This document shows, piece after piece, positions 3,895 through 46,589 of a stretch of DNA of 46,735 nt. The first letter of the stretch is position 1. The number at the start of each line of letters is the position of its first letter. This stretch comes from Candidatus Kerfeldbacteria bacterium. Its GTDB lineage: Bacteria; Patescibacteriota; Patescibacteriia; UBA9570. The stretch is taken from contig JACPGK010000033.1 in assembly GCA_016182495.1 (NCBI GenBank), positions 1 through 46,735 of the forward strand, given 5' to 3'. A model generated the notes under the pieces. The model had not been told where the DNA came from, ran no database searches, and saw only the letters and a program-made list of their open reading frames with translations. The translations under genes and the position numbers were made by a program.

Positions 3895-6800
3895 ATGATT
3901 CAACTTTTTTCCTGGCGGGCTACCTTTATTTGGCTGGTAGTAGCGTTGGCTTTGATCGTATCAGCCGCCCCATTGCGAGCAGTTACTAATCAGCCGGATC
4001 GTTTGTGGCAAAGCACCGAACGTACTGTGCAGAGCTATGATGCCAGTCGAGTGTATGCTACTGATCATATTATTGTGAAAAAAGTGACTGGAGAAGTTGA
4101 GCGTGTAGCCGTAGTCGAAGGTGCCACTGTAGAAAGCACCCTAGATTTATGGGCGAACGATCCAACAACAGCCTTTGCCGAACCTGATGGATTAGTGCGA
4201 GCCTTGGCCCAAGAAACATCCTGGGGCTGGACCACCCTGCAGGCGGGTGAGGCTGCTACCACCAATGGGGCCACTGGTGCCGGGGTGATTGTAGCTGTGG
4301 TTGATACTGGAGTAGATTATAATCACGAAGATTTAGATGCCAACAACTGGGTCAATACTGATGAAAGTGACGGTAATAACGTTGACAATGATAGTAATGG
4401 TTTTGTTGATGATGCTTTAGGCTATGATTTTATTGGTAGTTTGTATACCGCTGTTACTCCCGATAACGATCCGCAAGATGAGCATGGTCATGGTACTCAT
4501 GTGGCTGGCATTATCGCTGCTGAAAATAACACCGTTGGTACTCGTGGGGTAGCGCCATCAGCCACGATTATGCCGGTAAAAGTGCTGGATAGTGAAGGCG
4601 TTGGTTTTGATAGTACGGTAGCTGATGGCATTCGCTATGCGGTTGATAATGGCGCTGATATTATTAATTTAAGTTTAGGCAGCTCATTTGCTTCAAACAC
4701 CGTAAAAGAAGCGGTTGATTATGCCGAAACCAACGGTGTGTTAGTGATTGCCGCGGCTGGCAATAGCGGCACATTTTCTGGTTTATCGTATCCAGCCGGT
4801 TACAGCAATGTGATTTCAGTAGCCGCCAGTAATGAAGATGGCTATAAAGCCTACTATTCTAATTGGGGTAAAATTGATGTGATCGCTCCGGGTGATGATA
4901 TTTTATCAACTACCCCTGGTAATACTTACGATCGTTATTCTGGTACCAGCATGGCGGCTCCACATGTGGCTGGCTTAGCCGCTTTGATTCAACAGAAACA
5001 AGGCCTGACTAATATATACGCCATTCGTCATGCCCTCGAAACCACCACGGATGATTTTGGCACTCAAGTTGGGCCCGATTACGTGACTGGACAAGGCATG
5101 GTGAATGCGCTGTCTGCTACTGGTACCTTGCCGACTGAAGCCTTGGTGTATGCTGATAGTGGTACAGTCGTTGCCGATAGCTCTGATTTAATTACAATAT
5201 ACGCTTCAGTACGCACGGCCGCTGGCGTAGCCGTGACTGGTGATACGGTTACTTGGTCAACTACCAAAGGAACAGTATCGGCTAGTACGAGCACCACCAA
5301 TGCCAATGGGATTGCTAGTATTACTATCACCGCGGATGATGTTGCTGGCTTAGCCGTAGTAACAGCCGATGCCACTACTGCCGCTGCCGCTACTATGCAA
5401 TTTGCTATACTTGATGATACTGTCCAACCGGAAAATATTGGAGTCAGTCCATATACCGAAGGAGAAGAAGAATTGGTTGAAGAAGGCACTGATGAAGAAA
5501 ACAGCGATGAAGTAACTTTAGCCAATGCCAGTAGTGCTACCAGCTTATCAACTAATGTATACAGCGCTGGAGATAAACTAGTAGCGTGGTCGTACCCATT
5601 TGCCCGCGATCGTTTAGCCCATGATGTGACCATGACTTACAGCGTTACCGATCCAGCTGGCACAGCAGTGGCTGATTTATCGGGCACCAGCGAAGAAGTA
5701 ACTGTGGGGCAGCTATTTTGGGGAATATTTTTTGTACCACAAACTCGTATTACTTCTAAGCCACTTACTATTCCCACCACGGCGGCTACCGGAGAATATA
5801 CTCTTACAGTCACTATTAACGATGTTGATTCCAATGAAACGGCTACGCGCACGACCAACTTTTGGGTGAACGATTTACCTGATTTGCTGTTAGTGGATAA
5901 TATGGCTAGCTGCGGTGATACTCCGGTTGAAGGGTGGGATCTTGGTGGTTGGCCAGCCTGTTCGCGCGCCGGGCACGTTTTGGCTGACGAATTGACGGCT
6001 TTGGGATATACAGTAATGCTGTGGAACACGACTGATCTGGGCTATCCAACAGTTGATGATCTAAAATTATTTTCGGCTGTTATTTGGGCTGATGCTGGCT
6101 TAACTGCCGGTGATAGTTATACTCTGCAGACCTATTTAGAGGCTGGTGGTAATGTATTGTTGACTTCTGAACAAACCGCTAGTTACAATGATTACAGTAC
6201 GCCGACTGATTTTCTGTGGAATTATTTACATGCTCGTCGAGTATCTACACTATTTCATCCCGATGCAGTGGTTGGGGTAGCCGACGGCGTGTTCACTGGG
6301 GAAAGCTTCAATATGGATTTTTTTGATTTAAACGGCGATGGTGCTCATACCAGTTTTTATGCGGATGAACTAGAATTAAATGAAGCCGATGAGGCCGAAG
6401 CCATCTTGAGTTATAACGTTGGTCAATCGACTGCCAAAACTGCTGGCGTGCGAGTAGATAACGATACCTATCGAGCGGCGTATTTGGGCTTTGGTCTAGA
6501 ATCCATTAATGATGGCAGTGATAACGCTACTAAGGCCTATGTCCTCACCACGCTGTTGGATTGGTTACTGGGTGATAAGCCAACTATCTCCACTGTCAGT
6601 CCAACTAAAGTGGCTAATAATATAGACCGCACCATTACTATCACCGGAGATAATTTTTCTGTCGTTGGTACAACCGTAGTAAAATTAGGTAATACCAGAT
6701 TAAGCAGTGTCACCGTGCTTAACCGTCAAACTATTCAAGCTATTGTGCCGGCTGGTACCACTGCTAAACAATATAAAGTAAAAGTAATTAATCCGAATGA

Positions 6801-7317
6801 TCAGCGGGTTGGTTTAGCCAATGGGTTGCGGGTGACTAAAGGTGCTCCGATGGTTGATAGTGCTACTCCAGGGTACGCTTCTAATAATGTCGATCGAGTG
6901 ATCACGTTAGCTGGGCAAAATTTTAAAGCCTCATCAAAAGTATTCTTAGGTAAACAACGTTTACATAATGTTACCTTCGATAACGCTAACCAACTACAGG
7001 TGACTATACCGAAAGGTTTTACAGTTGGACAGTATGTTTTAAAAGTAAAAAGTTCTTCGGGTAAAGTTGGTACATTAGCTGATGATTTCACTGTGCGTTA
7101 TGGTTTTACTGAAGAATGGACTAGTGGAGCCAGTGCGGCCGGTGTGTTGGCCCTAGAACGACGCCTGCACATTTATGGTTACTTTAATGATACACCTGAT
7201 AATGATTTCACTGCCACCACCAGTAACGCTCTGCTTCAATTCCAGCACAGTCAGGCAATTACTGAAACCGGCGTTACCGATTTTTTGACTCGTTACTACT
7301 TAAACATCAATCAATAA
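3895..7317 (+). CDS. Secreted S8 subtilisin-like serine protease with Ig-like, IPT/TIG and C-terminal peptidoglycan-binding-like domains
   Basis: Catalytic motifs VAVVDTGVDYNHEDL, HGHGTHVAGI, GTSMAAPHVAG; two repeats PTISTVSPTKVANNIDRTITITGDNF / PMVDSATPGYASNNVDRVITLAGQNF; C-terminal ALERRLHIYGYFN...FQHSQAI. Confidence 0.9.
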   Translation: MIQLFSWRATFIWLVVALALIVSAAPLRAVTNQPDRLWQSTERTVQSYDASRVYATDHIIVKKVTGEVERVAVVEGATVESTLDLWANDPTTAFAEPDGLVRALAQETSWGWTTLQAGEAATTNGATGAGVIVAVVDTGVDYNHEDLDANNWVNTDESDGNNVDNDSNGFVDDALGYDFIGSLYTAVTPDNDPQDEHGHGTHVAGIIAAENNTVGTRGVAPSATIMPVKVLDSEGVGFDSTVADGIRYAVDNGADIINLSLGSSFASNTVKEAVDYAETNGVLVIAAAGNSGTFSGLSYPAGYSNVISVAASNEDGYKAYYSNWGKIDVIAPGDDILSTTPGNTYDRYSGTSMAAPHVAGLAALIQQKQGLTNIYAIRHALETTTDDFGTQVGPDYVTGQGMVNALSATGTLPTEALVYADSGTVVADSSDLITIYASVRTAAGVAVTGDTVTWSTTKGTVSASTSTTNANGIASITITADDVAGLAVVTADATTAAAATMQFAILDDTVQPENIGVSPYTEGEEELVEEGTDEENSDEVTLANASSATSLSTNVYSAGDKLVAWSYPFARDRLAHDVTMTYSVTDPAGTAVADLSGTSEEVTVGQLFWGIFFVPQTRITSKPLTIPTTAATGEYTLTVTINDVDSNETATRTTNFWVNDLPDLLLVDNMASCGDTPVEGWDLGGWPACSRAGHVLADELTALGYTVMLWNTTDLGYPTVDDLKLFSAVIWADAGLTAGDSYTLQTYLEAGGNVLLTSEQTASYNDYSTPTDFLWNYLHARRVSTLFHPDAVVGVADGVFTGESFNMDFFDLNGDGAHTSFYADELELNEADEAEAILSYNVGQSTAKTAGVRVDNDTYRAAYLGFGLESINDGSDNATKAYVLTTLLDWLLGDKPTISTVSPTKVANNIDRTITITGDNFSVVGTTVVKLGNTRLSSVTVLNRQTIQAIVPAGTTAKQYKVKVINPNDQRVGLANGLRVTKGAPMVDSATPGYASNNVDRVITLAGQNFKASSKVFLGKQRLHNVTFDNANQLQVTIPKGFTVGQYVLKVKSSSGKVGTLADDFTVRYGFTEEWTSGASAAGVLALERRLHIYGYFNDTPDNDFTATTSNALLQFQHSQAITETGVTDFLTRYYLNINQ

Positions 7318-20579: not shown

Positions 20580-20987
20580 ATGCCTATTCAAGCAGATCAA
20601 TGCAGTGTTATCGTGGTAGAAGATGAAGCCTTTCTTTCTAAAATACTCTCTGAACGATTAGTCGACGAAGGTTTTCAACGAGTGGATGTAGCCGGTAATG
20701 GAGAAGAGGCTCTGCAAAAAATTAGGTCAAATCCGCCAGATATTGTGTTGCTCGATATGATCTTACCAAAATTAAATGGTTTTGAAGTATTACAAACTTT
20801 GAAGGCCGATGCCAAATTGAAAACCATTCCAGTATTGATTTTATCTAATCTCGGACAAGATCAAGATATTGAGCAAGCTAAGCGTTACGGCGCTAGTGAT
20901 TATATTGTGAAAAGTAATTTTTCCATTCAAAAGGTAATTAATAAAATTTATTCAATTCTCAATGCTCAAGGCCGACCAGTTGAGTAA
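20580..20987 (+). CDS. Stand-alone response regulator receiver (REC) protein
   Basis: VVEDEAFLSKIL, DIVLLDMILPKLNGFEVL, no output domain. Confidence 0.9.
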   Translation: MPIQADQCSVIVVEDEAFLSKILSERLVDEGFQRVDVAGNGEEALQKIRSNPPDIVLLDMILPKLNGFEVLQTLKADAKLKTIPVLILSNLGQDQDIEQAKRYGASDYIVKSNFSIQKVINKIYSILNAQGRPVE

Positions 20988-22638
20988 AATTTTGCGCGAG
21001 GCCGATTTAATCAACGTTACTGATTTAACGCAAGCGTTAGCCTATGCTGAACATGAACAACGCTCGTTGAATGATATATTAGTTGAGCGTGATCTTATTT
21101 CTGATGAACATTTAGGGCAATTGATCGCTGAATATTCTGGGTATACCTTTGTGAATTTGCGTAAAACCAGTATCACTGATGAAACGTTGCAGATTATTCC
21201 TGAAACCATGGCTAAAACAGCCAATGTGCTAGTGTTTGGTGCTACTACCGATGCTATTCAGATAGCCATGTCTAACCCAACCGATTTAGCCACAGTGCAC
21301 TTGTTGGAAAAGAAAACTGGCAAAACTGCTCAAGTATTTTATGCTACCGAGCGCGATTTACACGATGCCATGAATTTATATCGTAAAGGCCTAGCTTTTG
21401 AATTTGCTGATGTGATTCATTCCGAAGTTGGTCACGCTACTTCAACCGCCGCCGCTAATTTATCCGTGATTAAAATTTTAGACACTATTATTCAATACGC
21501 CTATCAGCAAAAATCTTCAGATATTCATATTGAACCAACCAGCGATACTGTGGTGGTACGGTTTCGGATTGATGGCGTGTTACATGATATGGTATCACTG
21601 CCGAAGCAGTTATTGGATTTATTAATTACCCGTATTAAAATTTTGGCTCGCTTGCGTACCGATGAACACCGAGCGGCGCAAGATGGTAAATTAGTGCAAA
21701 AATTGGAAGAAGAAGATCTCGATGTGCGAGTATCAATTTTACCGGTGGCCGAAGGGGAAAAGGCCGTGTTGCGTTTGTTATCCAGTCGATCACGTCAATT
21801 TGCCTTAGAAGATTTAGGCTTCAGCGAAGATGACATTGTGATTGTACGACAGTATATTAAACGGCCACATGGCATGATTTTGGTCACCGGTCCAACTGGC
21901 TCCGGAAAAACCACTACCTTGTACGCCATTTTAAAAATTTTGAATCGGCGCGAAGTGAACATTTCCACCATTGAAGATCCGATTGAATACGCCATTGAAG
22001 GGATTAATCAAATTCAGGTGAACGAAGCCACCAATTTAACCTTTGCTAAAGGGTTGCGTTCGGTGGTACGGCAAGATCCAGATATTATTATGATTGGTGA
22101 AATTCGTGATGAAGAAACTGCCAGTATTGCCGTAAATTCGGCCATGACTGGGCATTTAGTGTTATCAACCTTACATACCAATGATGCTGCCACCACCTTA
22201 CCGCGTTTATTGGATATGAACATTGAGCCATTTTTAGTAGCCTCCACTGTTAATATTGCCATCGGACAGCGTTTAGTACGGCGCATCTGTAGCCAATGCG
22301 TGATGAGTGTAGTGTTGACTGGAGCAGAACTGGAGGCATTAAAAAAGCAAATTGATTTGAAACGCCATTTAAGAAAAGATCCAAAAGAGTTACGCCTTTA
22401 TCAAGGCAAAGGCTGTGTGGCTTGTCACCACACCGGCTATAAAGGTCGGTTAGGAGTGTTTGAAGTAATGCAGATGAGTCGTACACTGCGAGATTTAATT
22501 ACCAATCAATCCGATGCTGATATTCTGCGACAGGCGGCTATTGCGGCAGGCATGACAACTATGTTTGAGGATGGCCTACGCAAAGCTTTACTTGGTGAAA
22601 CTACTTTAGAAGAAGTTATGCGCGTGTTAGTGGAATAA
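20962..22638 (+). CDS. pilB: Type IV pilus assembly/type II secretion ATPase PilB/GspE
   Basis: N-terminal MshEN-like domain, Walker A GPTGSGKTTTLYA, Asp box, C-x2-C...C-x2-C zinc motif. Confidence 0.93.
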   Translation: MLKADQLSKILREADLINVTDLTQALAYAEHEQRSLNDILVERDLISDEHLGQLIAEYSGYTFVNLRKTSITDETLQIIPETMAKTANVLVFGATTDAIQIAMSNPTDLATVHLLEKKTGKTAQVFYATERDLHDAMNLYRKGLAFEFADVIHSEVGHATSTAAANLSVIKILDTIIQYAYQQKSSDIHIEPTSDTVVVRFRIDGVLHDMVSLPKQLLDLLITRIKILARLRTDEHRAAQDGKLVQKLEEEDLDVRVSILPVAEGEKAVLRLLSSRSRQFALEDLGFSEDDIVIVRQYIKRPHGMILVTGPTGSGKTTTLYAILKILNRREVNISTIEDPIEYAIEGINQIQVNEATNLTFAKGLRSVVRQDPDIIMIGEIRDEETASIAVNSAMTGHLVLSTLHTNDAATTLPRLLDMNIEPFLVASTVNIAIGQRLVRRICSQCVMSVVLTGAELEALKKQIDLKRHLRKDPKELRLYQGKGCVACHHTGYKGRLGVFEVMQMSRTLRDLITNQSDADILRQAAIAAGMTTMFEDGLRKALLGETTLEEVMRVLVE

Positions 22639-22644
22639 TACGAT

Positions 22645-23859
22645 ATGCCCCGATATACGTATCAGGCGTTTAATACTCAAGGTGAGCCAGTCACTGGTGG
22701 TATTGAGGCCAGTAGTGCCGTAGAAGCGAAACAGGCCTTAGAACAAAAAAATGTCGTCGTACAATCACTGCGCGAAGTAGGCGCTCGGCAACGTTGGTTG
22801 TCGTTGCACCTATCGTTTTCAATTTCTACTCGTGAGCTAACCTTTTTTACTAAAAATTTTGCGGTAATGTTAAATGCCGGCCTAACGGTGGTGGAGGCTT
22901 TGATTATTGCCGAAGCGCAATCGACTGGTAAATTAAAAACAGTGTTACATAATGTATTGCGTCAGGTAGAATCGGGCCATTCATTAGCTGATAGTTTTGG
23001 TCGTTATCAGCGTTATTTTTCAGCTATCTATATTGATGTGATTCGGACCGGTGAATTATCCGGTAGACTGGCTCGTAATTTTGATCAATTAGCTAATCAG
23101 TTAGAAAATGATTTAGCGTTGCGTAAAAAAATTCAAGCCGCTTTAATTTATCCTATCATCGTACTGGCCGCCATTATTGGTTTGGGGATTATTCTATCAG
23201 TGTTTGTATTACCACGACTGACTCGTTTATTCGTATCGCTCCAAGTGCCAATTCCCCGTTCCACTGAAGTGTTATTGTGGATAGCTGACGCTATGTCTCA
23301 TTATTGGTATTGGTGGTTAGCGTTTGGCATTATGCTGGTAGTATTGACTCGATTAGCACTGATGCTACCAACCGTAAAAAACATTTGGCATCATTTGATA
23401 TTGTGGCTGCCGATTGTGGGCCCAATTGTACGCAATGTGAATATCAGTCGTTTTACCGCTACGTTAGGCTCATTGTTGCAAAGCGGCGTGCCGATTGCTG
23501 AAAGTTTAACCTCGGTGATGCATTCCTCAACTAGCTTGGTGTATCGTCGAGTGTTACGTCTGGCTTTACAACATATTGAACAAGGCGGTAACTTAGCCTC
23601 ATTTTTAAGCGACTATCCTCGCTTGTTTCCACCGATTGTTACCCGCATGGTGGCTGTTGGTGAACGGACTGGTCGTTTGGAGGGCATTTTACAATATTTA
23701 GGCAAATATTTTGATTTAGAAGTTGATGCTGCCACAAAACAATTAAGCGTCACGCTTGAGCCGGTGTTATTATTGGTGATTGGAGCAGTGGTGTTATTTG
23801 TTGGCATTTCTATCATCACGCCAATTTATCAATTTACAGCATCAGTCGGTAAACTGTAA
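22645..23859 (+). CDS. pilC: Type IV pilus inner-membrane platform protein PilC/GspF
   Basis: T2SSF-like repeats (ELTFFTKNFAVMLNAGLTVVEAL; TATLGSLLQSGVPIAESL). Confidence 0.92.
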   Translation: MPRYTYQAFNTQGEPVTGGIEASSAVEAKQALEQKNVVVQSLREVGARQRWLSLHLSFSISTRELTFFTKNFAVMLNAGLTVVEALIIAEAQSTGKLKTVLHNVLRQVESGHSLADSFGRYQRYFSAIYIDVIRTGELSGRLARNFDQLANQLENDLALRKKIQAALIYPIIVLAAIIGLGIILSVFVLPRLTRLFVSLQVPIPRSTEVLLWIADAMSHYWYWWLAFGIMLVVLTRLALMLPTVKNIWHHLILWLPIVGPIVRNVNISRFTATLGSLLQSGVPIAESLTSVMHSSTSLVYRRVLRLALQHIEQGGNLASFLSDYPRLFPPIVTRMVAVGERTGRLEGILQYLGKYFDLEVDAATKQLSVTLEPVLLLVIGAVVLFVGISIITPIYQFTASVGKL

Positions 23860-24275
23860 TGAACTATCTGCAAGTATTATTAGTATTTGCGATTATTGCC
23901 ATTTTAGCGGCTGTCGCTTCGCCATTTTATCTTCAATTTCAATCGCGGCAACAGTTACAAGCTGCTGCTCAAACCCTGTTATCAGATGTACGGGTCACTC
24001 AAGCCAAAGCCATGGAACGGTATCAAAACACTAGTTGGGGAATACGCTTAGAGGATAGCAATAAACAGTACGTGGTATTTTCCGATGCAAACAATTTTAC
24101 CATACCGTATGCCAATAGCATTACCATTAGTTCTCCTGACCAAGATGTTCAATTTAGTGCTGTTACTGGTGAGCCAAGTAATGGCAGTACTACAATTACA
24201 ATCAGTTCTAGTTGGTTACCGGATGAACCATATACTATTACCATCAATGAAGCTGGCAATACCGAACTTAACTAA
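23859..24275 (+). CDS. GspH-like pseudopilin lacking a canonical leader
   Basis: Hydrophobic N-terminus MNYLQVLLVFAIIAILAAVASPFYLQFQSRQQLQAAAQTLLSDVRVTQ. Confidence 0.7.
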   Translation: MNYLQVLLVFAIIAILAAVASPFYLQFQSRQQLQAAAQTLLSDVRVTQAKAMERYQNTSWGIRLEDSNKQYVVFSDANNFTIPYANSITISSPDQDVQFSAVTGEPSNGSTTITISSSWLPDEPYTITINEAGNTELN

Positions 24276-27200
24276 ACAGCCAGCTGGCATACTGCTGGTT
24301 GAATTGATTATTACCATGGCTGTGTTTGCAGTGTTGGCCACGGGAGCAATTTATTTTTTAACAGCCACGTTATATAGTAGTCAATCCAGTGCCCAACGAG
24401 CGGTAGCGTCGCACTATCTACAAGAAGGGCTCGAAGCCGTTCAACAAATTGATCAGATAGCTTGGAATTATTTAGCCGACCTTCCTAATGTTGAATATGG
24501 CTTGGCACAACGTGAAGGCGTATGGGAACTGGTCACTACACCTGATCACCCGGAAGATAATTCACGCTACACCCGAACTATTATATTTACTGATGTTTAT
24601 CGTGATACCGCTGGCGACATTGTACCGAGCACTGATGATGAAGCGACCTTTGATCCTCATACGCGCGGCGTCACCGTAACCATTGCTTGGGAAAATAGCG
24701 TGCTTGATACCAGTACTATCAGCGCTGATACCTACGTGACTGATTGGATTGCGACCAGCACAACCACTACTACAGCTAGTGCCTGGGCCAATGGTACACT
24801 CACCAACTTACGGATTAGTGCCATTGCTGATGGTGAGTTGCAAATTATTCAATCTCCATTAGAAATTGATAACATCACCATTAACGATACTTGGCAAACG
24901 TTTCCATTTGATAATACCTTTGATCACCCAGTGGTGCTTACCGCCATAGCATCAGCCAATAATCCTAATTCCCCAGTGACTGTCCGAGTGCGTAATATCA
25001 CTGCTACTGGTTTTGATATAAAATTAGATTTTCCGACTGATAACACCACACCGAGTACAACCAATTCAGAAATAGTCACTTATTTGGCTATTGAACCAGG
25101 CATCTGGGAACTGGGTGATGGTGCCACTAAACTGGAAGCCGGTGTGGTTGAAGATGTGTCGGCTTTAAATTGCCAAACTTGTGGTAGTTGGAATCGTGGT
25201 ACTGATATTACCTACCAGCATATCTATTCGACCAATCCAATAGTGTTTCATCAAATTGTGACCGATAATGATTCTGATTGGATTACCTCATTTGTATCTG
25301 ATGATACTTCGGCTACAGCCCCACCTGGCATCGATGGTTTCCAAGTAGCCTTGAACGGGGCAGAAGTAGTTACTGTAGATGATAGCCACGGGGCTGAAGA
25401 TATTGCTTATTTGGTGATTGAGCGTGAAAGAACCGATAGTTTTGAACATATTAAATTTGAAACCGATGCTACTGGTGATACTGTGCGTGGTTTTGATAAT
25501 ACTCCATATCGTCGAGAAAATTTTGATCAAACCTATTTTGGCGCTCCCCTGGTGTTAGCCACTCAAATGAGCATGGATGCTACGGATGGCAGCTGGGGCA
25601 AGGTTACCGGTATCACCGCCAGTCGGCTAGATTTGTATGTTGATGAAGATCAAACCAATGATGCTGAACGATCTACTACCACTGAAGATATGGGCTACAT
25701 GGCGTTTGCTCAACCAGGCACATACTATCTCAATGACGCTGATGTGGTGTACGATGCCCCACCGTTTGAAGTAGGCGTGGTTACTGGTACTACCACTGCC
25801 AACCTTGAGGTCGGTATCACCACTGCCTCTACCAGTTGGTCAACGGTTAACTTGACCAATACCTATACTACCCCAGTGGTCGTTGCCACCATTCAGGATG
25901 GCAACAATCCTGCTACCCCAGTGACTGTGCGGGTGCGTAATGCCACGGTCAATAGTTTTGAAGTACGGTTAGATATTCCACCAGATAATTTTAACCCAAC
26001 CAGTAGTAATGCCGAAACCGTCAATTATCTTGTGGTCGAAGCTGGGGTATGGCGCTTAGGCAATAGCGGTATTAAGCTCGAAGCTGGTGTGCAAGATAAT
26101 GTTAGTCGGGTGAACTGCTTTTCTTGCGGCGGTTGGAATAACGGCGTTGATGTGAGTTATACCAATGGGTATAGTGCTGCTCCAGTGGTGCTGCATCAAG
26201 TGATGAGCGAGCATGATAGTAGTTGGATTACCTCATTTGTATCTGATGATACTTCGGCTACAGCCCCACCTGGCACCGATGGTTTCCAAGTAGCCTTGAA
26301 CGGGGCAGAAGTAACGGCTAGCCATGAGGCAGAAGATATTGGCTATGTGGTGATTGAAGCCGAAAAAACGGCTACGGCCAATAGCGTGGCTTTTGAAACT
26401 GATACTACTGGCGACATTGTGCGCGGGTTCGACGATACGCACTACACCGATACATTCGATCATACCTACATAACTGCCCCAATCGTACTGGCCGCTCAAA
26501 CCACCAGTGATGCTACCGAAGGCAGTTGGGCAATGCTCGATAGTGTAACACCAACCCAAGTCACTTTGTATGCAGATGAAGATCAAACTCGTGATCGAGA
26601 ACGATCACATACGTCGGAAGATTTTAGTTACCTTGCTTTTGGCCAAGCTGGATCATTCACTCTCACTGACAATAATTTTTTGCGTAACCCTGTTACCGTT
26701 AATTTGGCACAATCCTATACTAATCCGGTGGTAATCACTTCACCCTGGTTAACCAGTGATACTAATTCACCGGTGTCTACCCGAGTGTATGATGTCACTT
26801 CTACCGCTTTTACTGTGCAATTTGATTTTCCAACTGATAATTTTTCACCTCGTAACACGACCTTTTCTGACCAAGTATATTATTTAGTGATGGAGGAAGG
26901 AGATTGGCAAATTGGTGATATGAAAATCGAAGCCCATCGCGATACCAGTAGTACAGTGGCGTCATCTATTTCCTGGACGGGTGATACTAAAAATTTTAAT
27001 CACCACTATAGTAACGCTCCAATTGTACTACATCAGGTAATGAGTCGTAATGATCCAACCTGGATTAGTTCATGGGTGAGTCAGCCGAGCAGTCGCACTA
27101 ATCCACCAACGCGCACTAGCCTACAAATTGCCATGAATGCAGCCCAAGTGGTGCCGAGCCGAACGCATGGCCCAGAAACCATTGGTTGGATTGCCTTTGA

Positions 27201-27849
27201 AAATATTGGTACTGGAGTAGTTGATACCACCGAATTTCGTACTATGTGGAATACTGAATTTGCTGGCGGGCATAGTAATGGTTGCTATAATTATAGCCAT
27301 GGTGGTAATTACGCTAACGCGCGAGCCGTAGTGAGCCAAATGAGCATGGATAATAGTGATGGCAGTTGGGCGGCGCTTTGTAATATTACCACTACCGATA
27401 TTAGTATGCATTTTGAAGAAGATCAGTATAGTGATAGCGAGCGGTCACATCAAAATGAGGCCGTTGGGGCAGTGATATTTGCCGATGACATTGTGTTTCC
27501 TGGAGCGGTTGATACCTCTCACCATACCATTGGCACATACCAATCAGAGATTTTTGGTAGCAATACCGAGCGCAATTATAATATTATTGAATGGTTCAAT
27601 CAGATCGATTGTAGCAACTGTACGGTGAGTGTTCAACTACGCACCGCTGATACAGTTGATAATTTGGCCTTGGCCGGTTTTGTTGGCCCGGATGGTACCA
27701 CTGCTACTATCTATAGCAATGCCAGCGGAGATTTATTATCACTCAATAGCCTTAATCAGCGATACCTTCAATATGTTATGACCATCACCGGCACTACAGC
27801 CGAATCACCAAAAGTTGAAGCCACTACCATTACGTTGTATGAACGCTAA
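24247..27849 (+). CDS. Giant prepilin-like protein (~1200 aa) with three tandem modules of H-type-lectin-like repeats
   Basis: Prepilin motif G|ILLVELIITMAVFAVLATGAIYFL; repeats such as PVVLTAIASANNPNSPVTVRVRNITATGFDIKLDFP; start re-placed from 24085 to ATG 24247. Confidence 0.75.
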   Translation: MKLAIPNLTKQPAGILLVELIITMAVFAVLATGAIYFLTATLYSSQSSAQRAVASHYLQEGLEAVQQIDQIAWNYLADLPNVEYGLAQREGVWELVTTPDHPEDNSRYTRTIIFTDVYRDTAGDIVPSTDDEATFDPHTRGVTVTIAWENSVLDTSTISADTYVTDWIATSTTTTTASAWANGTLTNLRISAIADGELQIIQSPLEIDNITINDTWQTFPFDNTFDHPVVLTAIASANNPNSPVTVRVRNITATGFDIKLDFPTDNTTPSTTNSEIVTYLAIEPGIWELGDGATKLEAGVVEDVSALNCQTCGSWNRGTDITYQHIYSTNPIVFHQIVTDNDSDWITSFVSDDTSATAPPGIDGFQVALNGAEVVTVDDSHGAEDIAYLVIERERTDSFEHIKFETDATGDTVRGFDNTPYRRENFDQTYFGAPLVLATQMSMDATDGSWGKVTGITASRLDLYVDEDQTNDAERSTTTEDMGYMAFAQPGTYYLNDADVVYDAPPFEVGVVTGTTTANLEVGITTASTSWSTVNLTNTYTTPVVVATIQDGNNPATPVTVRVRNATVNSFEVRLDIPPDNFNPTSSNAETVNYLVVEAGVWRLGNSGIKLEAGVQDNVSRVNCFSCGGWNNGVDVSYTNGYSAAPVVLHQVMSEHDSSWITSFVSDDTSATAPPGTDGFQVALNGAEVTASHEAEDIGYVVIEAEKTATANSVAFETDTTGDIVRGFDDTHYTDTFDHTYITAPIVLAAQTTSDATEGSWAMLDSVTPTQVTLYADEDQTRDRERSHTSEDFSYLAFGQAGSFTLTDNNFLRNPVTVNLAQSYTNPVVITSPWLTSDTNSPVSTRVYDVTSTAFTVQFDFPTDNFSPRNTTFSDQVYYLVMEEGDWQIGDMKIEAHRDTSSTVASSISWTGDTKNFNHHYSNAPIVLHQVMSRNDPTWISSWVSQPSSRTNPPTRTSLQIAMNAAQVVPSRTHGPETIGWIAFENIGTGVVDTTEFRTMWNTEFAGGHSNGCYNYSHGGNYANARAVVSQMSMDNSDGSWAALCNITTTDISMHFEEDQYSDSERSHQNEAVGAVIFADDIVFPGAVDTSHHTIGTYQSEIFGSNTERNYNIIEWFNQIDCSNCTVSVQLRTADTVDNLALAGFVGPDGTTATIYSNASGDLLSLNSLNQRYLQYVMTITGTTAESPKVEATTITLYER
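25278..25368 (+). repeat. 91-bp near-identical direct repeat, copy 1
   Basis: Matches 26223-26313 with one mismatch (GGCATCG vs GGCACCG). Confidence 0.9.
26223..26313 (+). repeat. 91-bp near-identical direct repeat, copy 2
   Basis: See copy 1 at 25278-25368. Confidence 0.9.
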
Positions 27850-28342
27850 AACACCAACTGGTTTCTCATTATTCGAAGTAGTGGTGTACCTGGCGGTATT
27901 TGCCTTGGTGATGGTAGCAATTTTGACCATTTCGGCTCAAAGTGTCCGCAGTAAAACTAAAGCCGTAGCCATTCATAATGTCAATCATGCCGTCACTTTT
28001 GTATTGCATCGTATCAGCAGCGATGTCCGTTCGGCCAAAACCATTGATGCGAACGATTTTGAAGATGGCCTATTAACTCTTACGCTGGCTGATAACTCAA
28101 CGCGACAATACCAATTTACAGCTGGCGCTATCACCCTAGCAAACAATGGCGGGTCACCCCTAACACTAACGCCGAGTAATGTGACAATTGATCAATTTAC
28201 CGTAGTGAATCGTACTCATACTAATTTTAATACCATCCGAACCATCAGCATAACAGTGCAAGCCTCAATCGGCAGTAGTAGTAATCGACCCGAATTTGAG
28301 GCTGATGCCGCTGGTACTACCACTATCACATTACGACAATGA
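27842..28342 (+). CDS. Prepilin-like protein (GspJ-like)
   Basis: MNAKTPTG|FSLFEVVVYLAVFALVMVAILTI prepilin cleavage motif. Confidence 0.75.
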   Translation, partial: NAKTPTGFSLFEVVVYLAVFALVMVAILTISAQSVRSKTKAVAIHNVNHAVTFVLHRISSDVRSAKTIDANDFEDGLLTLTLADNSTRQYQFTAGAITLANNGGSPLTLTPSNVTIDQFTVVNRTHTNFNTIRTISITVQASIGSSSNRPEFEADAAGTTTITLRQ

Positions 28343-28731
28343 AACCAGCACCCGGCTACATTGCTTTAATTAGTGTGACCATTATTTTATCGGTTGTGGT
28401 GGTGATAGGCGTTTTAGTCACCGTGTTAACCGCTAATGGATTAGTGGCTGCCTTTACCACCGATCAAGGTATGCGGGCATTCTATGTGGCTGATAGTTGC
28501 GCCTATGAGGCCATGGTACGCATCAAACGAATTGGTTTGGGTTACATTGGTACTCATACGCTAACAGTTGTGACCGAAGGTAATTACTGCACTATTATCG
28601 CCACCGCCGGACCCGGCACTACAATAAATGTCCAAGTGACTGGAGTATTTCGTGAGAATTATTATCATGCAATTGCTTTACAATTAGAAACTAATCCATT
28701 TACGCTAATCAGTTGGCAAGAGACAGAATAA
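28339..28731 (+). CDS. PilX-like minor pilus-associated membrane protein
   Basis: N-terminal G-YIALISVTIILSVVVVIGVLVTVL; location in pilus operon; 4-nt overlap with upstream gene. Confidence 0.55.
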   Translation: MKPAPGYIALISVTIILSVVVVIGVLVTVLTANGLVAAFTTDQGMRAFYVADSCAYEAMVRIKRIGLGYIGTHTLTVVTEGNYCTIIATAGPGTTINVQVTGVFRENYYHAIALQLETNPFTLISWQETE

Positions 28732-28755: not shown

Positions 28756-29817
28756 ATGCGTAGTATTGGAGTGAATTTGTCGGATTATTCAGTTGAAGCG
28801 GTTGAATTACACCGGGGTATATTTTCTCGTTTGCCAGCTGTTACGGCAATCAGTCGAATAACCTTAGCCGACGGCATTGTCAATAATGGTATCATTCTCG
28901 ATCAGCCCGCTTTGATTGCTCAATTACAAGTACTATGGCAACAGGCTCGGCCAACACCGTTTCAGGCTAAGGCCGTAGTGGTGTCGTTACCTGAAAGCCA
29001 AGTATTTACCAGGTTATTAAGCTTTCCGGTAGGAGTGAGCCGAGATCATATCGCTGCTACTTTACAACAACAGCTGGGACATTATTTGCCATTTACGAAC
29101 AACGATGTCGGCCATAATTTTATTCAATTGGGTCAGCGGGGCCAGCAGCAAGATATTTTGTTAGTGGCTGTGCCCCGGACTATTTTACAAAGTTATCGTA
29201 CATTGGCTCAAACCATGCAATGGAAGTTAGTAGCCATTGAATTAGAATCAATCAGTTCGGCTCGCGCGGTGTTATCAGCCGTTACTCCCGGCACCGCTCA
29301 ATTGCTATTAGATATTGGAGCTCGTACTACCATTGTCAGTTTTTTTAATCATACTGGCTTACTGTTTACTTTTAATATTCCAGTAGCCGGGCAACAACTG
29401 ACGCAACAGATTATGAAAACCGCTAAACTCACTGCGGCTTTGGCAGAACAATTGAAATGTCGTGATGGTATCACCGGTAAAAATGCAACCGTGACAACCG
29501 CCTTAACCACCGTATTGGCCAGCATTGTTAGTAAAATTCAGGAAGCCAAGCAGTATGTAGAAAACAATTACGGTCACACTGTCGAACGTATTTATTGCAT
29601 TGGTGGTACAGCCAATTTACCGGGTTTAATGGATTGGTTACAGCAACAACTCGGTCAGCCTTGTGGCGTTGCTCAACTGTTGGCAAGTTTACGAAAAAAT
29701 AGTACACTGGCACTATTGCAAGATGATGGTTTAGTGTATAGTAATGCGGTTGGTTTAGCCCTGGGGGTAGTGGCTAAAGAACAATCATTTTCAGGAGTTA
29801 ATTTAAATACTTTATAA
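28756..29817 (+). CDS. pilM: PilM, type IV pilus actin-like assembly protein
   Basis: MRSIGVNLSDYSVEAVEL, LLLDIGARTTIVSFF, IYCIGGTANLPGLMDWL. Confidence 0.88.
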   Translation: MRSIGVNLSDYSVEAVELHRGIFSRLPAVTAISRITLADGIVNNGIILDQPALIAQLQVLWQQARPTPFQAKAVVVSLPESQVFTRLLSFPVGVSRDHIAATLQQQLGHYLPFTNNDVGHNFIQLGQRGQQQDILLVAVPRTILQSYRTLAQTMQWKLVAIELESISSARAVLSAVTPGTAQLLLDIGARTTIVSFFNHTGLLFTFNIPVAGQQLTQQIMKTAKLTAALAEQLKCRDGITGKNATVTTALTTVLASIVSKIQEAKQYVENNYGHTVERIYCIGGTANLPGLMDWLQQQLGQPCGVAQLLASLRKNSTLALLQDDGLVYSNAVGLALGVVAKEQSFSGVNLNTL

Positions 29818-29821
29818 TATT

Positions 29822-30322
29822 ATGTCACAACTCAACGATCATCGGCGTACAATGTCAGCTGGATTCACCTTAGTTGAATTATTAATTGTGATTGCGGTGA
29901 TTTCAATTTTAGCCGCGGTCGCCTTTGTAGCGATTGATCCTGCCACCCGTATTAACGAAGCGCAAGATTCTGAACGATGGAGCGCCGCCAATGCTTTGAT
30001 GGATGCATTTTTACAATCAACCGTTGATAACGATGGCACCTATCCAGCCGGAATAGCCGCTAATGGTACTGTGCATATGATTTCTAGTACTACCGATGCC
30101 AGTTGTACCCCAACTTGTCCATCAGCCACGGTGACTAGCTGTACTGATTTTGATGATTTGGTTGGCCAAGGTTATATTGCCAGTTTACCGCAAGATCCCG
30201 ATGGCGTTGGTACCTTTGATGGCGGTAATGGCTACACCTTGAGCGTTGCTTCAACTGGTATCGTCACCGTCACTGCCTGTGGTGCTGAAGAAGCGGAAGA
30301 CGGTATTACTGTAGCTCGTTAG
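29822..30322 (+). CDS. Type IV pilin/prepilin (major-pilin-like)
   Basis: SAG|FTLVELLIVIAVISILAAVAFVAIDP class III signal. Confidence 0.9.
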   Translation: MSQLNDHRRTMSAGFTLVELLIVIAVISILAAVAFVAIDPATRINEAQDSERWSAANALMDAFLQSTVDNDGTYPAGIAANGTVHMISSTTDASCTPTCPSATVTSCTDFDDLVGQGYIASLPQDPDGVGTFDGGNGYTLSVASTGIVTVTACGAEEAEDGITVAR

Positions 30323-43214: not shown

Positions 43215-46200
43215 ATGTCCCAAGCTATACTCACCAAATCCTCTATCACTACCAAAACTGCCGCTACCATATCGGTGCTAGCTTTAGCGGCAGTGCTAGC
43301 GGCTGGGTTTGTTGGCAGTCAACTTACCAGCACCACTCTAAAAAAACCTACCAAACTGGTGATTGGTCAAGCCACCAGCAAAAATCTATTGGCTAGTGCT
43401 TCGCAAGCCACGAGTGATAACTTGAACACGCTTCTTCCGGAAATACTTGGAGATGAAATGAGTCTGCCGCCAAATTTTAATATTGCTCAAGCTTCTTTTG
43501 ATACGAACAAAACAGCTACTGCCACCACTGCTTACAGTATACAAGCTTCGTCTGATCAGCCTATTTATTTTGCAGCTAATCCTAGAAACCACTTCAACGC
43601 CAAGCAAGAAAATAACAGTTTTACGATCAACTCATCAGATTCCAGTAAGGATTGGTCTGTCACGTTTGAACTGCAAAGCATACAAAAAGATAAAGACGCG
43701 AACAAGGCTCTTCGACCCAAAGATCAAGCCGAAGCTCAAAAACAAGAATATCGCATTGAACGAAAACACGAGGGCTTCAAGGCCGAATACAAAAACACGG
43801 AAAAAGGCTGGGAGGACACTTATACCGTAGAGAAAAAACCTACTGGCGATGATAAGCTTGAAGTAGTTCTGAAGGTTGATAAGAAGAATCTTCTCATGGA
43901 GCAGAAAAAAGATTATTTTCTTTTTAAGAATGCAGCCACTCAAGAACCCGTGCTGCAATACGGCGATCTCAAAGCCACGGATGCCGCAGGAAAACTCCTC
44001 TCCTCAACTCTCACCCAGAAAGATGATTTCATATTTTTGATTATTGATGACGTGAATGCCACCTATCCCATTATTGTCGATCCATTAGCCGCAGCACCGG
44101 GTTGGACTGTGTATGGGGAGCAGGAGTACTCGAATTTTGGATACTCTACTACGGCTTCTGCCGATGTAAATGGCGATGAGTACGACGATATTATCATAGG
44201 AGCTTTCCGATATGATCACGACGAAGGCGATGAAGGTAAAGTTTATGCGTTTTATGGTGCTGCTGCTCCGGATACAATTGCCGATTGGACATACGAACCG
44301 AATATAGAAGATAGATATTTTGCTAACTACATCTTTGCTTTAGGAGATATCAATGGCGATGGATATGATGAGATCGGTATTGAAAGTGATCAATTTAGCT
44401 ATGAAGGAGGAGCCTATACGTATTATTATTATTTTGATATTTTTTATGGCAGTGCCTCTGGATTAAACACAACGCCAGGATGGTCGAAGGCTTTTGGAAT
44501 TTTGGACTCTATGCTTGAGGCTCAAGGAGCCGATTTTAATGGCGATGGGTATATTGATGTTTTGTTTTGGACACAAGATCAAGACCCCTTATTAGAAGAC
44601 TTCCAGCCACTGGCCTATATATATTATGGTTCGTCAAGTGGAATAAGCCCAAATCCAGATTGGGAACAAGCAGAACTTGCAGCCACTTACTATCAATCTG
44701 CCGATATGAATGGGGATGGATATAGTGATATACTTATGTTTGGTGGTTCTTCCAGTACTTTGTATTATGGTTCAGTCTTGGGTATAACAAATGATAACAC
44801 AATTGAAATCCCTTCTCTTACAGGCAATAGTGCACTTGGCGGTTCAGGAGATATCAATGGCGATGGGTATGATGACATTTTAATTACTGTTACTGACGGT
44901 ACCCCCTCGCTGTATATGAAAGCTGTGTATGGATCTGCTAGCGGAACAGTCAATGAATCTGCTTGGTCTATAGAAATAACTTCTTCAGCACACATCCTTT
45001 CAGCAGGAGATATTAATATGGATGGCTTCGATGATATTATGGTAGGTGATGCTAGTTACGATGGACTCGATACAAATACCGGGAAGGTAGAGGTGTATCG
45101 AGGTTCAGCCATAGAGCCTGATCTTACTCCGTACTGGATATTTGAAGGTACGAATTATTTTGATCAAGTGGGTATTTCAGGAGATTTAGGCGGCGACATT
45201 GATGGTGATGGCACGAATGATATTGTGGTAGGAGCTCATTCCTATAAAGTAGATGGATTGAGCATGGGTGCCGTGTTTATGTTCCGCGGTGAAGGCCCTT
45301 GTCAGCCAACCTTAGCTTCCACTTGGTCTGCTGCTGGCAATCAAAACAGCGCCTTGCTTGGCTGGAGCACAGATTCAGCCGGCGATGTGAACGGTGATGG
45401 TAAGGATGATGTGATTGTTGGCGCGCCGTTATTTGATAATGGCCAAGTGAATGAAGGCATAGCTGTAGTACACTATGGCAGTGATGGTTTGTCGATCACC
45501 CCAGATTGGTTTGCCGAGGGTAATCAGAAAAATTTACATTTTGGGTACGATGTGGCTGGGTTAGGCGATGTGAATGGTGATGGCTTTGCTGATATCGCCG
45601 TCAGCACACCAGAGTATTATGAGGGTTCGGCTCGACACTATGGTGCTGTGTTCATCTACAAAGGTTCCGCCACAGGTTTAGTATCTACTCCTAGTTGGAC
45701 GATATATGGCAATCAAGAATTTGCAAAATTTGGTGCCAGTATTGCCGGTGATGATGTCACAGCTGATCAATTAGGAGATTTACTGGTGGGTGCACCACGG
45801 TATGATAACGATGAAACCGATGAAGGTGCAGCCTTTATGTATGCTGGATCAGTCACTGGCGTAACTACTACACCAACCTGGTCAACTGAAAGCAATCAAA
45901 CTGATGCTTGGCTTGGTACGAGTGTGGCTGTAGTGGGAGATGATGTGATAATTGGCGCACCACGGTATGATAACGGTGAAACCGATGAAGGCGTAGCACT
46001 AGGATACTATAGTGAATTGGGTAGTTTGCCAGCTGTGTACAGTTGGTTGGCAGAAAGCAATCAAGCCAATGCTAAACTGGGCTTTAGTGTGGCTTCGGCT
46101 GGTGATGTGAATGCTGACGGTTTTAGTGACGTGATCGCTGGTGCTCCACAGTATGATAACGGTGAGATTGATGAGGGTGCTGCCTTTGTTTACCATGGTT

Positions 46201-46589
46201 CAGCTTCCGGTTTCATGACTACACCCAATTGGAGCGCGGAAAGCGATCAGTTGTTTGGTTGGTTTGGGTTTAGTGTGGCTGGCCTTGGCAGATTAAGCAG
46301 TGATACTGATTTTGACAGTGTTATAGTTGGCAGCCCGCTGTTTACCAATGGTGAAAATTTTGAAGGCCAAGCTACAGTGTATACTGCTACGGCTGGTGGT
46401 TTAAACACCACGGCCTATTGGACCACAGAATCCAACCAAGCCAATGCTGGTTTGGGTTGGAGTGTAGCCAGTGCGGGTGATTACGATGGTAATGGTCAGG
46501 ATGATCTCATGATTGGTACGCCATTGAACGATGCTGGCATCTATACTAATGACGGTAAAGCTGAAGTATATACGACCAGTTGTTTATAA
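43215..46589 (+). CDS. Secreted/anchored FG-GAP repeat (integrin-alpha-like) protein with two predicted seven-bladed beta-propellers
   Basis: Repeated GDVNGDGxxDVIVGAP motifs; N-terminal TM/signal. Confidence 0.88.
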   Translation: MSQAILTKSSITTKTAATISVLALAAVLAAGFVGSQLTSTTLKKPTKLVIGQATSKNLLASASQATSDNLNTLLPEILGDEMSLPPNFNIAQASFDTNKTATATTAYSIQASSDQPIYFAANPRNHFNAKQENNSFTINSSDSSKDWSVTFELQSIQKDKDANKALRPKDQAEAQKQEYRIERKHEGFKAEYKNTEKGWEDTYTVEKKPTGDDKLEVVLKVDKKNLLMEQKKDYFLFKNAATQEPVLQYGDLKATDAAGKLLSSTLTQKDDFIFLIIDDVNATYPIIVDPLAAAPGWTVYGEQEYSNFGYSTTASADVNGDEYDDIIIGAFRYDHDEGDEGKVYAFYGAAAPDTIADWTYEPNIEDRYFANYIFALGDINGDGYDEIGIESDQFSYEGGAYTYYYYFDIFYGSASGLNTTPGWSKAFGILDSMLEAQGADFNGDGYIDVLFWTQDQDPLLEDFQPLAYIYYGSSSGISPNPDWEQAELAATYYQSADMNGDGYSDILMFGGSSSTLYYGSVLGITNDNTIEIPSLTGNSALGGSGDINGDGYDDILITVTDGTPSLYMKAVYGSASGTVNESAWSIEITSSAHILSAGDINMDGFDDIMVGDASYDGLDTNTGKVEVYRGSAIEPDLTPYWIFEGTNYFDQVGISGDLGGDIDGDGTNDIVVGAHSYKVDGLSMGAVFMFRGEGPCQPTLASTWSAAGNQNSALLGWSTDSAGDVNGDGKDDVIVGAPLFDNGQVNEGIAVVHYGSDGLSITPDWFAEGNQKNLHFGYDVAGLGDVNGDGFADIAVSTPEYYEGSARHYGAVFIYKGSATGLVSTPSWTIYGNQEFAKFGASIAGDDVTADQLGDLLVGAPRYDNDETDEGAAFMYAGSVTGVTTTPTWSTESNQTDAWLGTSVAVVGDDVIIGAPRYDNGETDEGVALGYYSELGSLPAVYSWLAESNQANAKLGFSVASAGDVNADGFSDVIAGAPQYDNGEIDEGAAFVYHGSASGFMTTPNWSAESDQLFGWFGFSVAGLGRLSSDTDFDSVIVGSPLFTNGENFEGQATVYTATAGGLNTTAYWTTESNQANAGLGWSVASAGDYDGNGQDDLMIGTPLNDAGIYTNDGKAEVYTTSCL

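Follow-up and report, generated by a model that had tools for sequence, protein, structure and literature searches.

Modular pilins display adhesive modules, most probably at pilus tips, and I subunits begin the assembly of the H-I-J-K tip complex (PMC8179133, PMC9934059). Described examples include two modular pilins of S. sanguinis, PilB with a vWA domain and PilC with an Ig-like domain and a ConA-like lectin (PMC9934059), and the survey of Raynaud et al. (2021) lists 264 architectures, its extreme multi-domain case being an 860-residue Falkowbacteria protein; modular pilins of Patescibacteria, and ones bearing LamG, are already known from it (PMC8179133). In Nanosynbacter lyticus TM7x, deletion of PilX2 (beta-propeller) reduces host binding (PMC12206443). 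Here we describe a giant prepilin gene in a 46,735-nucleotide stretch of DNA (contig JACPGK010000033.1, “the window”) from a Candidatus Kerfeldbacteria bacterium. We read its product, with a probability of about 0.62, as a modular type IV minor pilin in which triplets of H-type-lectin-like units would be held at the pilus tip as multivalent carbohydrate-binding heads, in a cargo slot exchanged between lineages. The features of the gene are given below; “slot homologues” are relatives that occupy the same position in the same operon.

24247-27849, + strand: giant modular minor prepilin, 1200 amino acids plus stop, position I of the minor-pilin operon (open reading frame; orthologues 52% and 57% identical in two same-family genomes)
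24247-24288, + strand: class III leader peptide MKLAIPNLTKQPAG, cleavage predicted before ILLVE (sequence; G-1/E+5 conservation; peptidase elsewhere in the genome)
24289-24795, + strand: pilin module (about 170 amino acids), GspI/PilV/ComGE-like (NCBIfam matches across slot homologues; conserved in about 20 genomes)
24859-25731, + strand: super-module 1, units 24859-25155, 25156-25422 and 25423-25731 (H_lectin match over unit 1)
25278-25368, + strand: 91-nucleotide tract, 90/91 identical to 26223-26313 (gene-conversion signature)
25804-26664, + strand: super-module 2, units 25804-26100, 26101-26358 and 26359-26664 (modelled with AlphaFold2, see below)
26223-26313, + strand: second copy of the tract, in super-module 2 (matches 25278-25368)
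26671-27501, + strand: super-module 3, units 26671-26949, 26944-27201 and 27202-27501
27532-27846, + strand: conserved C-terminal domain (about 105 amino acids, residues 1096-1200; iterated hidden Markov model; common to slot proteins with other cargo)

The super-modules occupy residues 205-495, 520-806 and 809-1085, with three units each. Self-comparison of the protein gives strong off-diagonals at 315/311, 279/280 and 591-600 residues, and pairwise identity between super-modules is 55%, 34% and 35%. Inside a super-module, units 2 and 3 resemble each other most clearly (profile-profile probability 94%), followed by units 1 and 2 (74%), the match between 1 and 3 being weak (14%). The full-length orthologues of both same-family genomes keep all nine units, so the architecture does not stem from faulty assembly; chance repeats were considered as the source of the super-modules and rejected, on the self-comparison and the orthologues. 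The original prediction, made from the sequence of the window, had proposed nine units in three super-modules, and self-comparison, unit models and the two orthologues bear it out; the boundaries it gave (24835-25740, 25783-26655 and 26690-27480) were correct within a few tens of bases. It had marked neither the C-terminal domain nor the 91-nucleotide near-identical tract.

The H-type lectin assignment comes from several directions. The whole-genome scan gives unit 1 a score of 26.5 bits against Pfam H_lectin (PF09458, curated cut-off 24 bits), and the protein scan 20.1 bits, below the cut-off; an orthologue of the giant pilin reaches 26.5 bits, and the family matches 5 of 13 super-modules (best E 3e-6). 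Units 2 and 3 are assigned by homology and fold only. An AlphaFold2 model of super-module 2, from an alignment of 13 rows, consists of three beta-sandwiches, nearly all beta, with 6-7 strands per unit (predicted local distance difference test, pLDDT, 85.6; predicted template modelling score, pTM, 0.89). In Foldseek searches of the PDB with this model, the R2 pyocin fibre, whose foot is trimeric with a discoidin-like lectin fold (PMC6363177), matches with probabilities of 0.98 and 0.97 (6ct8 and 6cl6; root-mean-square deviation 2.7-3.5 Å, 89 columns), and discoidin II and Helix pomatia agglutinin (HPA) are among the lower-ranked matches. Viral models give one protein that matches the entire three-unit module (E 1e-15, template modelling score 0.79, 301 columns), and many single units that match tail-fibre/H-type lectin domains (probability about 0.97-1.0). 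At the sequence level, no relatives of the super-module were found in viral contigs and phage DNA, and neither the full protein nor a super-module profile matched anything useful among PDB sequences. Searching with super-module 2 by tblastn, we recovered haloarchaeal plasmid proteins that align to about 95% of the query (E 9e-12) and are annotated as “H-type lectin domain-containing protein” and as S8 peptidases; the three examined have exactly three units each, and the middle unit of the Halocatena marina protein scores 39.9 bits against H_lectin. On such haloarchaeal plasmids (L141, L142 and L143) the triplets are fused to an S8 peptidase or a GINT1_N-like domain. Taken together, the Pfam matches, the model of super-module 2, Foldseek and the haloarchaeal matches uphold the H-type-lectin-like units that had been proposed.

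HPA and the discoidins are trimers of single units. Fibre feet with the discoidin-like lectin fold likewise work as trimers of single units (PMC6363177). In the triplet-type proteins, arrays of 3, 6 or 9 units were found by unit-level models in 22 of 24, a set partly gathered with a three-unit profile; the two exceptions are a partly masked sequence with two separate units, and a protein with two units and a weak third. Because of this seeding, a set gathered by Pfam H_lectin alone was also counted, and there each protein has at most one recognisable unit, or three, masked sequence excepted. We infer that a super-module may be a covalent, single-chain stand-in for an H-lectin homotrimer, with which the pTM of 0.89 fits, without being proof. 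Among prokaryotic H-type lectins, the counts suggest two arrangements: a lone unit on each chain, or triplets within a single chain. In a separate group of non-pilin loci (L066-L080), very large proteins of the class have a single H_lectin unit near the C-terminus, which often precedes a Pro/Glu/Thr-rich tail, and several of these proteins start with a YQGK/YQGR-type motif.

Repeated sandwiches could also serve as a stalk, which would make the giant pilin a structural or surface protein on the pilus shaft or the cell surface, its lectin-type fold being a spacer; other H-lectin triplets in the phylum do sit in large proteins without a pilin part, and the triplets more distant from the window's are in proteins without these pilus neighbours. 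We regard this explanation as quite improbable, given that the gene lies at position I of a minor-pilin operon, that nearly every triplet keeps polar and aromatic residues (ND..W, DG.DGSW, DEDQ..D.ER.H..E), and that published modelling finds clashes when a bulky modular pilin is placed within the filament (PMC8179133).

The N-terminus is that of a prepilin. The leader reads, on inspection, MKLAIPNLTKQPAG up to the cleavage site and ILLVELIITMAVFAVLATGAIYFL beyond it, and in an alignment of 20 homologues G-1 is invariant and E+5 nearly so, which confirms the class III prepilin signal G/ILLVE that had been noticed earlier (the slash marks cleavage). The frame stays open 5' as far as 24085, and the start is placed at 24247 because the leader (MKLAIPNLTKQPAG/ILLVE) sits there; the gene then overlaps the preceding pilin gene by 29 nucleotides. 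Against Pfam N_methyl, the window copy alone scores 11.0 bits (cut-off 21.2). The features of a type IV prepilin that we find are the class III leader, the ATPase, platform and pilin genes alongside, and a prepilin peptidase elsewhere in the genome; furthermore, a non-pilin functional domain lies C-terminal to the pilin module, as in modular pilins. The pilin modules of 20 slot homologues have weak NCBIfam matches to models of I-type minor pilins, ComGE (15), GspI (8) and PilV (6), the window's own best match being a weak one to GspJ, with no curated or equivalog cut-off reached.

About 20 relatives keep the slot position and the pilin module (a sample chosen by similarity to the window protein, not a census). 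Of 24 slot sequences, all except three end with the C-terminal domain, and one of those three is cut by a contig end. What lies between differs: H-lectin triplets, LamG in one to four copies, a propeller of YCF48/BNR type (alone or joined by CBM5/12), DUF4082, or sequence with no assignment. One slot protein, of 320 residues (L047:9601-10560, G014), has the pilin module and the C-terminal domain with almost nothing between, an apparent empty carrier. In samples of 383 class genomes and 381 phylum genomes, nine have a triplet closely related to that of the window (E below 1e-80), and all nine carry it in this slot; two of the nine are outside the class. A 4252-residue open frame that runs to the contig end (L045:1826-14581, G030) matches the C-terminal domain of the giant pilin. 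It is possible, though we consider it doubtful, that throughout this phylum of ultra-small cells the tip I subunit serves specifically for recognition: its pilin module and C-terminal domain would stay constant, its carbohydrate-binding cargo would be swapped between lineages and reshuffled by gene conversion, and this one gene would largely determine the cells or surfaces open to attachment.

The super-modules also appear to exchange sequence within the gene. At the DNA level, super-modules 1 and 2 share 65% identity, and between them the 91-nucleotide tract has sharp edges, a single mismatch (T against C) and a longest exact run of 53 nucleotides; in 2000 codon shuffles no run exceeded 39. 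Synonymous sites agree throughout, so selection at the protein level fails to explain it. No third copy was found in the genome; silent donor cassettes were rejected on that ground, and a diversity-generating retroelement on the one T/C mismatch and the lack of a further genome copy. The pattern indicates gene conversion between super-modules 1 and 2 of this putative tip-adhesin gene; other within-genome pairs show weak signs of conversion at most. In a tree of three genomes, the third super-modules group together, apart from the first and second (support 100 and 98), and therefore the first duplication, at least, predates the split of the family. The separation of first from second super-modules is less well resolved, as expected if these two convert each other.

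The giant gene and its neighbours run, from first to last, histidine kinase, response regulator, PilB, PilC, H-like pilin, giant gene, J-like pilin, K-like pilin, PilM and probable major pilin, an order kept in about 20 genomes:

20580-20987, + strand: response regulator (Pfam Response_reg; synteny)
20962-22638, + strand: PilB-type assembly ATPase (PF00437, 425 bits; synteny)
22645-23859, + strand: PilC-type platform protein (open reading frame, synteny; named from sequence inspection and position)
23859-24275, + strand: H-like minor pilin (GspH), overlapping the start of the giant gene (Pfam GspH 21.4 bits, cut-off 21)
27839-28342, + strand: J-like minor pilin (prepilin N-terminus; position)
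28339-28731, + strand: K-like minor pilin without Glu5, G/YIALISV (sequence; eleven relatives)
28756-29817, + strand: PilM (Pfam PilM_2, E 3e-29)
29822-30322, + strand: probable major pilin (Pfam N_methyl, E 9e-8; role assigned by inference)

The K-like pilin has I, not E, at +5, and E is likewise absent in 11 of 11 relatives inspected; absence of Glu5 is a published mark of K pilins (PMC9934059). The H-like pilin of the window is without a canonical leader (stop-T-V-M-N-Y-L-Q, to be compared with M-R-G/FSYIQ or R-G/YSYIQ in orthologues), which may be an unprocessed or decayed signal; Q stands at the usual E position in all three H-like pilins, that of the window and those of the orthologues. 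In most of the loci examined (L029-L048, L120-L125), as in the window, the gene immediately upstream of pilB encodes a stand-alone response regulator, which suggests a conserved signalling input to the pilus. PilY1 (PF05567) gave no match in this genome and likewise none in control genomes, so its absence is not inferable.

The pilin-module matches to GspI and ComGE models, together with the five good matches to ATPases of type II secretion system/type IV pilus type in the genome, would also suit a filament of another kind, either a pseudopilus of type II-like secretion or a pilus for DNA uptake, whose large subunit would bind cargo such as degradable polymers or DNA. This we consider very improbable: PilM in the operon fits a type IV pilus, and the cargo is lectin-type, not DNA-binding.

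For the tip-borne lectin that we favour, the sequence of events would be as follows. The prepilin peptidase would cleave the leader, and the I subunit would enter the complex of minor pilins that initiates the filament and forms its cap, so displaying its long ectodomain outward at the tip. Each triplet would fold as a single-chain substitute for an H-lectin homotrimer, and one pilus tip would therefore offer three multivalent carbohydrate-binding heads; retraction would draw the cell toward the bound target, a partner cell or a surface. Between lineages the middle of the gene would be swapped as a cargo slot, pilin module and C-terminal domain being retained, and within the gene the super-modules would trade sequence by gene conversion. 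The original prediction had envisaged a pilus-tip adhesin that could bind host glycans in an episymbiont. Its tip part gains indirect support from position I in an H-I-J-K operon and from published models in which bulky modular pilins sit at the pilus tip (PMC8179133, PMC9934059); glycan binding by the triplets is suggested by their predicted fold, and an episymbiotic host is conjectural.

The main rival assigns the ectodomain to a protein-binding tip adaptor, holding a secreted protein and not a sugar. The trimeric minor pilins TcpB and CofB, found at pilus tips, have a third domain that is H-type lectin-like; they bind TcpF and CofJ peptides, and it is secreted proteins, not sugars, that these folds bind (PMC9565799). 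We found no sequence match to CofB/TcpB among PDB sequences with the full protein, the super-module profile or the pilin-module profile. The cargo of slot homologues includes further carbohydrate-binding types (LamG, CBM5/12), which have in common with H-lectin a link to sugars but no obvious shared protein partner, and nine units would exceed what an adaptor needs; we consider an adaptor unlikely.

Besides the precedent of TcpB and CofB, several points weigh against a lectin at the tip as we propose it. The super-module model has no match at E < 0.001 in Foldseek against the PDB, and its structural match to HPA is weak (template modelling score 0.46 of HPA length, E about 1). The full-length AlphaFold2 run reached only a pLDDT of 30 and was discarded. 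The putative pseudo-trimer packing is argued from array sizes, in a partly three-unit-seeded set, and from pTM, and the ligand, the tip location and the pilus itself are deduced here from genes.

At 1.3 Mb (96% complete), the genome is a small one, as are those of relatives, which agrees with Patescibacteria. Elsewhere in the window, two further large proteins are encoded: at 3895-7317, a 1140-residue subtilase with Big_1, TIG and a peptidoglycan-binding domain, and at 43215-46589, a 1124-residue FG-GAP repeat protein (integrin-like propeller repeats).

Little is known of the way in which uncultured ultra-small bacteria recognise a partner cell, and this locus gives one candidate gene per genome that can be found by synteny and whose cargo lends itself to expression and glycan-array work. 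The giant pilin is a good candidate for the means by which a cell of this kind recognises its attachment targets, and the triplets suggest a natural multivalent lectin scaffold. Among open-licence papers, a scope that does not cover the list of 264 architectures, we found none that describes H-type lectin triplets in a pilin or an exchangeable I-subunit slot.

In comparison with known systems, the giant pilin shares with the S. sanguinis modular pilins a lectin-type cargo, other minor pilins alongside and a proposed tip location; unlike PilB and PilC, it has H-type lectin cargo in nine copies arranged as triplets, and occupies position I of an H-I-J-K set, with a conserved C-terminal domain and 1200 residues. 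Like PilX1 and PilX2 of TM7x, it is a patescibacterial minor pilin with extra C-terminal domains, although those are named as another pilin position (PilX) and have other cargo (PMC12206443). With CofB/TcpB of type IVb pili it would have in common a minor pilin at the tip and an H-type lectin-like domain used as a trimer (PMC9565799), but there one domain per chain is contributed by each of three chains, whereas the giant pilin has three units per triplet in a single chain, and three triplets. Finally, the predicted beta-sandwich unit and its proposed trimeric use are those of HPA, the discoidins and the feet of R-pyocin and phage tail fibres (PMC6363177); these have one unit per chain, whereas the triplet of the giant pilin is covalent and would be pilus-borne.

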